Made by a program: the position numbers and the translations under genes. Of a DNA stretch of 64,000 bases, positions 12,763-16,228 are shown one piece after another. Each line of letters opens with the position of its first letter. Positions within the stretch are counted from its first letter, which is position 1. Under the pieces are notes generated by a model. It worked only from the letters and a program-made list of their open reading frames with translations. It was not told the DNA's origin and made no database searches. Location: NCBI RefSeq assembly GCF_004346685.1, contig NZ_SMCO01000013.1, positions 1-64,000 of the forward strand, in the 5' to 3' direction. This DNA is from Sulfurirhabdus autotrophica (lineage in GTDB: Bacteria; Pseudomonadota; Gammaproteobacteria; Burkholderiales; SMCO01).

Positions 12763-13160
12763 CAGCCGAAGAAATCATTTTCATTGTCGGCGGCCTGTTG
12801 GCTGGTTACTGGATTGTTATGGCTATGCTCGATAAAATAACAGAGACTTCAGCTAAAACTGTCGCCGAAAGCAATAAAGAAACATTCATTACTCAGGAGA
12901 AAATGTTTCACGAGATGCCGGACAAAGGCAACAATTCATACGATGAAAATTACATCCCTGCAAACTGGTTCAAAATTCTGGAAATTGCTGAGAGCGCTTC
13001 GTCTGAACAGATAAGAGTGGCTTACAAACAAAAGATATCTCAATACCACCCGGATAAAGTCTCACAAATGGGATCAGAAATCCGGGACCTTGCGGCATAC
13101 AAATCAAGGGAAATCAACGCCGCGCATGATTACGCACTGAAGTTGCGTCAAGAACTGTAG
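12759..13160 (+). CDS. Membrane-anchored J-domain co-chaperone
   Basis: 133 residues. An N-terminal transmembrane helix (about 5-24) and linker precede a C-terminal J domain (about 68-133) with the essential HPD tripeptide at 97-99 in ISQYHPDKV. J domains stimulate the ATPase of DnaK-type Hsp70; a single anchor with a terminal J domain resembles DjlA/DjlB-like proteins. The ATG overlaps the upstream stop (ATGA). As last gene of the DUF2167 operon it may recruit DnaK to that membrane complex; this is inference. Confidence 0.88.
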   Translation: MTAEEIIFIVGGLLAGYWIVMAMLDKITETSAKTVAESNKETFITQEKMFHEMPDKGNNSYDENYIPANWFKILEIAESASSEQIRVAYKQKISQYHPDKVSQMGSEIRDLAAYKSREINAAHDYALKLRQEL

Positions 13161-13265
13161 CTACAAACGCTGTTTTAATTGATTACATTTCTTTAAATCA
13201 GGGGAAATTGCTGTGCACAAAACCCCAGTTCAGGTCAAAGCCACTGATAAAACTACACAATTTTA

Positions 13266-13294
13266 TTGACGATGGCATTTTTGTACCGCACAAT
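13266..13294 (+). promoter_or_regulatory. Possible sigma70 promoter upstream of the PEP-CTERM-like gene
   Basis: TTGACG (13266-13271) and CACAAT (13289-13294) with 17-base spacing, about 110 bases before the ATG at 13406. The -35 box is 5 of 6 and the -10 box 4 of 6. I looked for a sigma54 site (GG-N10-GC), which PrsK/PrsR-controlled PEP-CTERM genes can have, and saw none. Confidence 0.35.
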
Positions 13295-13405
13295 ATGCCG
13301 ACATTAGGTCGTTCTAGTCACTCGCTCAACTTTAAACAAAGCAATTTTTAAGCATAACGGTAAGATGGCATAAAACCTGAAACTATTAACTGGAAAATAT
13401 AAAAA

Positions 13406-13936
13406 ATGAAATTAAAATCTCTTGTGATAGCAGTATTGCTGGCTGGCATGCCTCTAGCTACACAAGCTTCGCTAGTAACAAAAACTTTTATTTCGACAAT
13501 TACTGTTGGTTCGCTTGCTGGTAGTTATGGAACAGGAAGTTTTACTTATGATGATGCCTTGGTAATTACGGGATATGAAACAATTAGCGCTCTAGACGGC
13601 TTAAAAGTTAATTTCACTTTTGATGGGCAGGTTTTTAACGAGACAAATGATCGCGATTATATTACCGACCCTTACCCTGCGCTCACCTTTGTAAACTTTC
13701 AAGCCATTGATCTTAATTACCTATTGGCAAATGGTGTGAATGGTGTATCTTTCGCAAACTCTACAATCCAGGAGTTGTACATTTCCGGGTTAAATGCTTC
13801 TACAAATGGTTATGACTTCGCTAACACTATGGAAGTGACTTCTGTGCCCATTCCTGGAGCAATCTGGATGTTATTTTCAGGCTTGACTGGTCTCTTGGTG
13901 CTAGGCAACAGAGGCAAGAAAACAAATACATTCTAA
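13406..13936 (+). CDS. Secreted PEP-CTERM/VPLPA-type sorting-signal protein
   Basis: 176 residues. A signal peptide ends near TQAS. The C-terminus is a tripartite sorting signal: VPIPGAIWM, a hydrophobic helix (MLFSGLTGLLVLG), then basic NRGKK. This fits the VPLPA/VPxPG variant of PEP-CTERM signals cut by exosortase at the envelope. The mature middle is Gly/Thr/Asn-rich with no recognised enzyme motif. PEP-CTERM proteins are usually exported with exopolysaccharide or biofilm matrix. No exosortase or EPS genes are in this window, so it is an outlying substrate. Possible promoter at 13266. Confidence 0.85.
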   Translation: MKLKSLVIAVLLAGMPLATQASLVTKTFISTITVGSLAGSYGTGSFTYDDALVITGYETISALDGLKVNFTFDGQVFNETNDRDYITDPYPALTFVNFQAIDLNYLLANGVNGVSFANSTIQELYISGLNASTNGYDFANTMEVTSVPIPGAIWMLFSGLTGLLVLGNRGKKTNTF

Positions 13937-14084
13937 GTCAGCTTTACTTGGCTATCTATTTCGATGAATTCATGCGGCGTATTACTCGCATTGACACCTG
14001 ATTATAGCGCCAAGCTTTAGGCTATTGTATTTATGCCATCATATTCATCCTCAAATCAATTTAGCATAAAGCAAGGATAATATT

Positions 14085-14351
14085 TTGGGGCTGGATACCA
14101 TTGAAACAATACTTTGGGCGGAACATGAATTTGGTATCCCCATCCCGGATGAGGATACGTCAACCCTACTTACAGTTGGGGAATTTTCATTGTACATTCG
14201 CCACCAACTTGTATTGAAAGAGGGCATCAAGGCAATTTCCGAACCACAGATTTTCAATGCTATTAAAAATTTCCTTGCCAGTCAATTCAAGATCAAGCCT
14301 GAAATCATTGTGCGCAACGCAGCTTTCGTCAAAGACCTTGGGTTGGAATAA
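14085..14351 (+). CDS. Acyl-carrier-protein-like protein with permuted halves and no pantetheine serine
   Basis: 88 residues from TTG 14085; AAGGA (14073-14077) lies 7 bases upstream and an in-frame TAA closes the frame at 14067-14069. Residues 2-38 (GLDTIETIL ... FGIPIPDED ... TVGEFSLYI) match ACP helices II-IV, which follow the DSL serine. Residues about 52-88 (IFNAIKNFLASQFKIKPE ... NAAFVKDLG) match ACP helix I and its loop, ending exactly where the DSL motif would begin. The ACP halves are thus in swapped order, and the 4'-phosphopantetheine Ser position is Gly2 or absent. It cannot be a normal acyl carrier. Function unknown; YkgJ-type gene 30 bases downstream. Confidence 0.75.
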   Translation: MGLDTIETILWAEHEFGIPIPDEDTSTLLTVGEFSLYIRHQLVLKEGIKAISEPQIFNAIKNFLASQFKIKPEIIVRNAAFVKDLGLE

Positions 14352-14381
14352 TCCCAAAAGCCGGCTCATATGAACTAATCT

Positions 14382-15032
14382 ATGCATATGCTGAGTCCTG
14401 AAGAACAGTCTGAGTTTTTGAGTGCTATTGAAAAAGTGCAGCACGCTGCATTAAACCAACTTTGTGCCAACCAGAGCATACCGTTTGCCATCACTTTTAT
14501 ATCTAAATTGCAACTCAGCGTGGACCAAGTTGTTCATACTTCGATAGACAGGCAATCCATCGACTGCAGAGCTGGATGTAGCCATTGCTGTAATGTGCGG
14601 GTTGAGGCGCTTGAACCTGAAATTTTTTTGATTGCCCAGGAACTCAGAAAAAATCCTCCAGATAAACTCAGGGAAGTAATTGTAACTTTGCGTCAGCATG
14701 TTGAAATAGTGAAAGATGTTTCCATTCAGAATTATCACTTCCAATGCCCATTTCTGAAAGATCATTTGTGTTCGATCTATCCAGTTCGCCCGGCCATCTG
14801 TATAAAAGTGCACTCCTTTGATGTTGAAAAATGCAAAACACCCGGAGCTGAGATACCACAAAACCTGAATATCGTTTTAAAATCTGATGCTCTGATCAAG
14901 GGTACTGCTAACGCGTATCAACAGATCAAACTGTCTGCTTCAGGGCACGAACTCGGACAAGCTGTCTTGCTTGCCCTTACTGACGAATCATCAGAAACAA
15001 AATGGTATAACGGTGAGCCAATATTTGATTAG
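14382..15032 (+). CDS. YkgJ-family cysteine-cluster protein
   Basis: 216 residues. The signature is C62-x3-C66-x2-C69-C70 (DCRAGCSHCC), then CPFLKDHLCSIYPVRPAICIKVHS with further Cys and the RPxxC motif. This is the YkgJ/CxxCxxCC family (PF03692), proposed to bind zinc or iron; many members have unknown roles and some are linked to flagellar or metallocentre functions. It starts 30 bases after the ACP-like gene on the same strand, suggesting co-transcription. The C-terminal 60 residues have no recognised motif. Confidence 0.88.
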   Translation: MHMLSPEEQSEFLSAIEKVQHAALNQLCANQSIPFAITFISKLQLSVDQVVHTSIDRQSIDCRAGCSHCCNVRVEALEPEIFLIAQELRKNPPDKLREVIVTLRQHVEIVKDVSIQNYHFQCPFLKDHLCSIYPVRPAICIKVHSFDVEKCKTPGAEIPQNLNIVLKSDALIKGTANAYQQIKLSASGHELGQAVLLALTDESSETKWYNGEPIFD

Positions 15033-15298
15033 ATAGTTATTCACCTTAATTCAATTTCTCCCAACTGCCGGTTTGCATTTATCCTATACTTATTTCTTTG
15101 GCATTTCGGCTACCGCAATGCTAATGGGTAGTATTATTTTCTTGCGTTATCGTTAACATGATCTATCTTAATTAAGAGTAGCGTTTCGCTCGCAAGGTGT
15201 GCGGTTGCGCCCCGCATTCATGACTATTTGTGATTTTGCCAAATCTTGTCACGATGCTGGGAGAGGTTTTTCATCGTTATTTCACAAGTGAAGGAATC

Positions 15299-16228
15299 AT
15301 GACCCAAAATATTTTATGGCCGGCTAAGGTTAGAGAGCTGCATAACCACCATTTTGATTCTACCATCTGGAATGATCTACAATTCCGTGAAGACGATATT
15401 GTTATTGCTACCTACGCTAAATCCGGTACCACCTGGATGCAGCAAATTCTGGCGCAGATGCTATTCAACGGCAACCCTGAATTGTCAGTTGCTGAAATGT
15501 CGCCCTGGCTGGATTTACGCATACCACCCAAACAGGTGAAACTACCTGAGGTAGAGGCGCAAACGCACCGCAGAATGATTAAAACCCACCTTCCGCTGGA
15601 TGCACTTGTCTACTCACCCAAGGCAAAATATATTTATATTGCACGCGACGGAAGGGATGTTTTATGGAGTATGTATAACCATCACGTTCACGCCAACCAG
15701 GCTTGGTATGAAGCACTAAACGACACGCCTGACCGGATAGGGCCACCCATTGACCGACCTCCCGGTGATATCCGTCAGTATTGGCACGACTGGATGGATA
15801 AGGATGGCCATCCTTTCTGGCCGTTCTGGGAGAATATTCGCACATGGTGGCAAATACGCGAATTGCCAAACATTCTGTTTGTCCACTTCAATAATCTGAA
15901 AAGTGATATGCCGGGACAAATGCGCCGTATCGCCTCCTTTATGGACATTCCCATAGACGAGTCACGCTGGGATGATATTGTGGAATATTGTTCATTCGAC
16001 TGGATGAAAAAAAATGCGATAAAAAGTGTGCCCCTTGGCGGTGCTTTCTGGGATGGGGGTGCCGAGGTTTTCATCAATAAGGGTGTGAATGGACGTTGGG
16101 CAGATACGCTTAGTGCTGACGAGTCTGCCGCGTACGAAGCACGCGCTATCCGCGAGTTAGGAACCGAATGCGCTCATTGGCTTGCCACAGGTGAAATTAC
16201 TTACAATAAGGAAAAAAGCGTCAGTTAG
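15299..16228 (+). CDS. Sulfotransferase-domain protein
   Basis: 309 residues from ATG 15299 (AAGGA 4 bases upstream). An upstream TTG/ATG extension to 15230 is possible but poorly supported. PAPS-dependent sulfotransferases move sulfonate to hydroxyls or amines. Seen: the 5'-phosphosulfate loop YAKSGTTWMQQ (Lys41-Trp46), KTHLPLDAL in the catalytic region, and the 3'-phosphate motif YIYIARDGRDVLWS. The WWQIRELPNILFVHFNNLK stretch is also typical of the Sulfotransfer_1 family. Acceptor unknown. Isolated gene, no PAPS synthesis genes nearby. A 266-base gap upstream has no other gene. Confidence 0.9.
   Translation: MTQNILWPAKVRELHNHHFDSTIWNDLQFREDDIVIATYAKSGTTWMQQILAQMLFNGNPELSVAEMSPWLDLRIPPKQVKLPEVEAQTHRRMIKTHLPLDALVYSPKAKYIYIARDGRDVLWSMYNHHVHANQAWYEALNDTPDRIGPPIDRPPGDIRQYWHDWMDKDGHPFWPFWENIRTWWQIRELPNILFVHFNNLKSDMPGQMRRIASFMDIPIDESRWDDIVEYCSFDWMKKNAIKSVPLGGAFWDGGAEVFINKGVNGRWADTLSADESAAYEARAIRELGTECAHWLATGEITYNKEKSVS

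Follow-up and report, generated by a model that had tools for sequence, protein, structure and literature searches.

A family of acyl carrier protein look-alikes apparently permuted at the phosphopantetheine serine

Introduction

A short gene of Sulfurirhabdus autotrophica encodes an 88-residue protein in which the two halves of an acyl carrier protein (ACP) stand in swapped order, with the break at the phosphopantetheine serine and a glycine in its place. Comparison with relatives shows that the swapped order, the loss of the serine and the end points are kept in a family. The gene was found in a stretch of 64,000 nucleotides of contig NZ_SMCO01000013.1 (here called the window), and coordinates refer to this stretch unless another locus is named. 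Few small proteins are as well studied as ACP, and its whole purpose is seen in the serine arm.

Natural circular permutation of the halves of small domains is known from saposins and swaposins and from lectins, in which the function-bearing residues are kept; in the permuted ACP, in contrast, the break removes the attachment residue. In comparison with AcpP of type II fatty acid synthesis (TIGR00517, PF00550), both halves are homologous and the acidic helix-II positions and the equivalent of the core residue Phe50 are retained, whereas the halves are swapped, Gly2 replaces the pantetheine serine and the window protein scores under the curated cut-offs (47.2 versus 70.45 bits for TIGR00517 and 16.4 versus 20.8 bits for PF00550). 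The PF00550 cut-off is passed by eight of nine relatives, with L077 below it, and the NCBIfam cut-offs by none of the nine, the nearest being L098 (70.9 of 71 bits) and L100 (69.3 of 71 bits). PF14573 (PP-binding_2, Acyl-carrier) resembles the family in a weak match to the first half of five of the nine relatives (E 0.0016–0.07), but all five fall below its 32-bit cut-off and only the end of the model is matched (positions 48–91 of 96). No model of the permuted order is present among the Pfam and NCBIfam matches listed. A literature search for permuted, pseudo or serine-less ACPs, with most subscription journals outside its scope, found no description, and a printed account may exist; the papers pairing ACP with circular permutation, among the matches listed and in the parts available, deal with subjects such as lipoate ligases, peptidases, phages and biosensors. 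Public protein databases contain proteins with ACP-like names that begin with MGLDxVEL and have hydrophobic middles. What we describe looks like a genuine family of carrier-protein look-alikes without an arm, apparently not described before.

The gene and its product

The open reading frame (14085–14351, plus strand) is intact, with a TTG start codon, 88 coding triplets and a TAA stop codon, and its assignment as a permuted ACP gene draws on full-length relatives with the same order. A ribosome-binding-like AAGGA, read from the sequence, lies on the plus strand at 14073–14077, 7 nt before the TTG, in agreement with the original prediction of a TTG start with a ribosome site. In the alignments the codon of Gly2 (14088–14090, plus strand) coincides with that of the pantetheine serine in ACP. 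It is followed on the same strand by a first half (14091–14207) that profile matches assign to ACP helices II–IV (ACP model positions 38–76) and by a second half (14250–14348) that corresponds to helix I and its loop and ends in DLGLE before the serine position; of this second half, 14250–14342 was scored by a hidden Markov model (HMM) and the remaining end was read from the translation. Besides these two halves no ACP piece was found in any frame of 12900–15600, a stretch of −2.9 bits at 14655–14717 being noise. An origin as the meeting point of two longer ACP genes is rejected because no other ACP piece flanks the reading frame in this stretch.

Swapped order of the ACP halves

In ACP terms, residues 3–41 of the window protein begin just past the phosphopantetheine serine and reach through helix IV, and residues ∼54–88 hold helix I with its loop and end with the residue that precedes the serine. 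TIGR00517 matches the protein in two stretches (total 47.2 bits, E 1.5e-12), the better of which aligns residues 3–40 with model positions 38–75, while NF003757 detects the second half alone (residues 53–87 on model positions 4–38, E 0.0091). Against an HMM built from 31 ordinary ACPs (the ordinary-ACP HMM), the unrotated protein gives a best single stretch of 33.5 bits; rotated at residues 49–52, it is matched in one piece over ACP positions 3–76 with 57.1 bits. The two halves scored apart give 36.3 and 17.6 bits and the rotated score is close to their sum, so the gain stems from joining the halves in ACP order. None of 400 shuffles of either half reaches the observed score. Rotation produces a single full-length ACP match in each of the five short forms scored in this way (window, L003, L036, L100 and L101), with 15 to 38 bits over the best single stretch. 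The second halves of the window protein, L003, L100, L101, L163, L159, L034 and L035 have scores that are reached by none of 400 shuffles, and that of L036 by one of 400.

The solved ACP chains give the same picture with a profile of the family. Residues 2–34 of the Aquifex ACP align with profile positions 54–86 (i-E 3.5e-6) and residues 36–74 with positions 3–41 (i-E 6.1e-12), and the sole ACP residue skipped between the two stretches is 35, the place of the serine. The rotated ring has one extra residue relative to ACP at the seam, namely Met1, which is expected to be cleaved before glycine; Gly2 then stands for the serine. Homology to ACP thus extends over helices I–IV through both halves, with ACP models as well as solved ACPs, and the helix order of the window protein and its relatives is II–III–IV–I in place of I–II–III–IV. 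The two-stretch matches and the rotation strongly support the predicted circular permutation with its break at the pantetheine serine; of the half boundaries originally proposed, the assignment of both halves to ACP stands, and the start of the second half moves, in the profile matches, from residue 52 to residues ∼53–55. Both chain ends of most members carry a G-L-D-like motif, which may trace a permutation via tandem duplication.

Predicted structure

The AF2 model (five short forms) is a confident helical bundle, with a pLDDT of 89.0 and a pTM of 0.80, and has helices at residues 3–16, 22–25, 31–46 and 53–68. The short form is accordingly predicted to fold into a compact helical bundle. A Foldseek search with this model gave no match at E ≤ 0.001; its ACP rows span 38–44 columns at 0.8–1.5 Å and 25–44% identity with weak E values (0.6–5.7), and the overlap is taken as fitting helices II–IV (ranges not printed). 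In VIA-align the ACP chain 1f80_F is at the top (Z 6.3, 2.2 Å, 67 aligned residues, 9% identity), level with the HAD-type phosphoglucomutase 4uw9 (Z 6.3), and HAD-type phosphatases score equally. Because its identity is only 9% and it looks sequential, this match does not represent a permuted overlay, and the overlay on ACP is probably pseudo-symmetric rather than homologous. The original prediction would have been refuted by a fold other than the four-helix ACP bundle; the confident helical bundle and the 38–44 columns superposed on ACPs do not refute it but answer the point only in part, the placing of helix I being beyond sequential aligners. The model of the long form L098 is poor (pLDDT 64.9, pTM 0.37).

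The arrangement of the helices also bears on whether the protein might exchange halves, swapping helices with an ordinary ACP or with itself in a domain-swapped complex instead of a monomer. In the short form helices IV and I are joined by a short linker, and an extra helix before the hydrophobic middle of the long forms (residues 51–67 of the L098 model, which is of low confidence) looks by eye like helix I, although among the long forms scored it was scored only in L160 (3.3 bits). Both points would suit such an exchange; the monomer, however, is modelled confidently, and we consider a half-exchange partner unlikely.

Relatives and distribution

Members of the family occur in three lengths: short forms of 87–90 residues, of which six are intact (window, L003, L036, L100, L101 and L163); middle forms of 173 residues (L034 and L035); and long forms of 222–228 residues (L039, L067 and L098, together with L077, which has a diverged end). 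L160 is a further long form that is cut at the edge of the fetched stretch and hence incomplete. The long forms contain a helix-I-like stretch (by eye), a hydrophobic middle and then a C-terminal copy of helix I, which the ordinary-ACP HMM scored at residues 189–220 in L039, 194–228 in L067 and 196–226 in L098. With the helix-I-like stretch preceding the hydrophobic middle in L098, L039, L067 and L160 (again by eye), helix I may occur twice in these proteins.

The swapped order is seen in ten relatives (L003, L036, L100, L101, L163, L039, L067, L098, L034 and L035), and both halves in this order are found in Pseudomonadota, Planctomycetota (L098), Gemmatimonadota (L163) and Myxococcota (L034 and L035, weakly scored), the phyla of L034, L077 and L098 being inferred; Bacteroidota contribute a truncated copy with the first half only. 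The halves of L163 score 43.0 and 10.7 bits and those of L159 41.2 and 27.4 bits. The second half of L034 and L035 scores 1.7–1.9 bits within the whole protein and 6.5 and 6.3 bits, respectively, when cut out alone (maximum of 400 shuffles 4.6 bits). L077 and L164 have no second half scored by the ordinary-ACP HMM. The order is thus conserved across species, as the original prediction had proposed to examine, and the intact same-order homologs answer its concern that homologs might be absent or the frame decayed, though L037, L159 and L164 are broken or truncated.

A search of the taxonomic order (399 genomes, E ≤ 1e-5) matched 314 genomes; the matches listed, which reach to about E 9e-7 so that a weak permuted member between that value and 1e-5 could escape, are mostly ordinary ACPs covering profile positions 3–60 at most, and those extending further are the window, L003, L036, L037 (broken) and L039. 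In a phylum sample of 398 genomes (E ≤ 1e-11) 11 were matched, adding L067; the nine matches besides this and the window span profile positions 3–62 at most and are taken as ordinary ACPs. A sample of 188 Myxococcota genomes gave 19 matches, of which one, in the genome of L034, is permuted, the other 18 covering at most profile positions 3–52 and being counted as ordinary ACPs; 13 of these 18 loci are DSL-type ACPs on inspection, a figure that does not include L084, L087, L092, L095 and L097. The long-form profile found L077 and L098 in 199 Planctomycetota genomes (E ≤ 1e-12), and only the genome of L067 in 398 genomes of the window's phylum. Five carriers were found in the family of G004 (43 genomes), namely L003, L100 and L101 (intact short forms), L037 (broken) and L039 (long); in genus g5, four of the six genomes covered match, one with a broken copy. 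A class sample of 266 genomes gave five matches and adds L159 (short, with an in-frame TAG) and L160 (long), the matches L161 and L162 being left out of the member set.

Among plasmids, L163 lies on plasmid 1 of Gemmatirosa kalamazoonensis (90 residues, covering all of L100 at 33% identity) and a Persicobacter plasmid carries L164, a long form that is truncated; a plasmid search with the window protein as query gave no match. Scanning of viral contigs with the family profile returned 22 loci (L103–L124), several of them ordinary ACPs and none with a permuted-type start (a start codon followed by Gly). A further contig scan returned four loci, of which L034 and L035 are permuted and L032 and L033 are ordinary ACPs. 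All 11 carrier genomes searched (those of L035, L159, L160, L163 and L164 lying outside this check) also hold an ordinary ACP above the TIGR00517 cut-off. The family is rare and patchy, yet widely spread.

A tree built from 15 ordinary ACPs and nine permuted proteins in rotated form groups the latter with a support of 92/92, and once the junction columns are dropped together with two very long ACP rows this support is 49/90; L035, L077, L163, L159, L160 and L164 were left out of the trees. The trees are compatible with a single origin of the family, which is no more than possible because the support falls in this way.

Conserved residues and selection

Gly2, Leu3, Glu13, Phe16 and Thr30 are each present in all 15 copies with a readable first half, Glu7 in 14 (L164 is without it) and Asp4 in 13. 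This count excludes L037, the frame of which breaks in this region, includes L159, L160 and L164 although they are broken, cut and truncated, respectively, and holds the near relatives L034 and L035. In ACP numbering Gly2 takes the position of the lost Ser36, and Leu3, Asp4, Glu7, Glu13, Phe16 and Thr30 correspond to Leu37, Asp38, Glu41, Glu47, Phe50 and Thr64. The DSL motif with its phosphopantetheine serine is absent, glycine standing there in every copy counted, which confirms the predicted lack of an arm serine; the glycine count is somewhat biased because the search profiles contained Gly2 and one member search required it, and members with other residues may be missed. ACP docks on its partners with a face that includes Asp38, Glu41 and Glu47. 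Judged by the alignments, this acidic helix-II face appears to be retained, with Glu at ACP position 41 in 14 of 15 copies, Glu at position 47 in 15 of 15 and Asp at position 38 in 13 of 15. The ends of ten intact members (window, L003, L036, L100, L101, L163, L039, L067, L098 and L034) were lined up by eye with ACP, and nine stop just before the serine while L036 has one residue more.

A chemical role for the N-terminal glycine is conceivable because both chain ends meet exactly at the serine place. After removal of Met1, which Gly at position 2 favours, the amine of Gly2 would lie at the place of the serine oxygen and would itself be modified, for example N-acylated; the protein would then work without phosphopantetheine, as a carrier or a mimic of acyl-ACP, and bear its acyl or other modification directly, in at least four phyla. 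The constancy of Gly2 and the position of the chain ends would fit this, but the glycine may serve only for capping of helix II or for Met removal, the profile bias noted above weakens the count, and we know of no modifying enzyme, neighbour or precedent for an N-terminal glycine carrier. We judge such a modification to be improbable, and a carrier of this kind across the phyla equally so.

Identity to the window protein within the taxonomic order is 36–42%. For L034 and L035, a single pair, dN is 0.0315 and dS 0.265, giving a dN/dS of about 0.12; in the L003, L100 and L101 pairs 50–58% of the nucleotide differences fall at third codon positions, with dS saturated and yielding no ratio. These values bear on the suggestion of the original prediction that the gene could be a fused remnant of two ACP pieces, understood as a functionless product of an accident. 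Three broken or truncated copies and the patchy presence would be in line with it: L037 (1436–1703, in the fourth g5 genome) has a frame broken near position 1500, by nature or by sequencing error; L159 (1501–1770) has an in-frame TAG at codon 27 and is otherwise complete, with DLGAD next to the stop codon, which stands at the serine place of ACP; and L164 is truncated. A dead product is nevertheless unsupported because order, length (87–90 residues in the six intact short copies) and end points are kept, at the above identities within the order and in other phyla, and the low dN/dS of the one pair points the same way. The conserved relatives largely refute this explanation, which we regard as very improbable, and a decayed gene is rejected on the same ground.

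Genomic context

The window gene is preceded, in this order, by a DUF2167 gene, an unassigned membrane-type ORF and genes for a DnaJ-domain and a PEP-CTERM-like protein, and is followed by genes for a CxxCxxCC protein and a sulfotransferase. The ORF just upstream (13406–13936) has a signal-peptide-like start and a PEP-CTERM-like end, with NF038126 matching only at E 0.016. The gene that follows (14382–15032, plus strand) encodes the YkgJ-type CxxCxxCC protein of 216 residues (PF03692, E 1e-6) and is real, as first described. The two genes had been taken as a pair, and a functional partnership, for instance of a carrier-like scaffold with a Cys-cluster protein in metal or Fe–S handling, would be consistent with the gap of 30 nt on the same strand and with a different, shorter PF03692-type protein (∼135 residues) that occurs ∼3.2–3.6 kb downstream in three g5 genomes (Pfam-confirmed in two of them). 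In the g5 genomes, however, two deacetylase-type genes intervene (Pfam-checked in one), PF03692 genes are common, and PF03692 was not recognized in the immediate neighbours of nine relatives and L163 by Pfam scan or from ORF starts. A conserved ACP–YkgJ gene pair is therefore not upheld, an obligate pair is rejected as the neighbours differ among relatives, and we find a functional pairing in the window improbable.

The surroundings of the other members are varied. In the g5 genomes an MFS transporter gene directly precedes the gene (its stop codon shares one base with the ATG of L101) and the deacetylase-type genes follow. L036 is one cassette in an integron-like array (L128, 1–8000) of small genes between 12–13 attC-like repeats, which are mostly 369–678 nt apart. 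An ORF for an FAD-dependent oxidoreductase, taken from its first possible start, overlaps the end of the L098 gene by 4 nt. A choloylglycine-hydrolase-like gene (PF02275; L131, 4138–5145) lies ∼1 kb upstream of L098, with one opposite-strand ORF between. L067 directly follows an ABC ATPase gene, with dapB beyond on the other strand; L077 follows a MoxR-type ATPase; L039 follows an M3 peptidase and a 143-residue ORF without a Pfam match; L163 follows a DinB-type gene, with a kinase beyond on the other strand; and L034 is flanked by two large membrane-type ORFs of the opposite strand. Among the neighbourhoods examined (nine relatives and L163), no neighbour recurs outside g5.

Proposed function

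A permuted pseudo-ACP family acting as an armless mimic or adaptor that docks on general ACP partners is the reading that we prefer, and we hold it to be about evenly balanced between right and wrong. Its function is inferred from the kept docking face together with the missing arm. The chain starts at the ACP serine position with Met-Gly, continues with helices II, III and IV, passes through a short linker into helix I and ends just before the serine. Loading with 4′-phosphopantetheine at the usual place should be impossible, and the acidic helix-II face (ACP Asp38, Glu41 and Glu47) would be retained for docking on ACP enzymes. The protein may bind at least one general ACP partner and tune or occupy it, candidate partners being fatty-acid-synthesis enzymes, AcpS, acyltransferases and ACP-sensing regulators. 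Such a partner is most likely to be a housekeeping protein, given that no neighbour of the gene is constant and that the gene is found on a megaplasmid and as one cassette in an integron-like array. In the long forms the hydrophobic middle probably tethers the same module to the membrane. The decoy or partner-binding mimic of the original prediction is, from the sequences, plausible and remains our preferred function.

A family that is permuted at the serine, is without the serine and keeps the docking residues would demonstrate a use of ACP surfaces for nothing but binding. An armless ACP with its free ends at the site of the arm would also be a natural tool for sorting out which functions of ACP depend on the arm.
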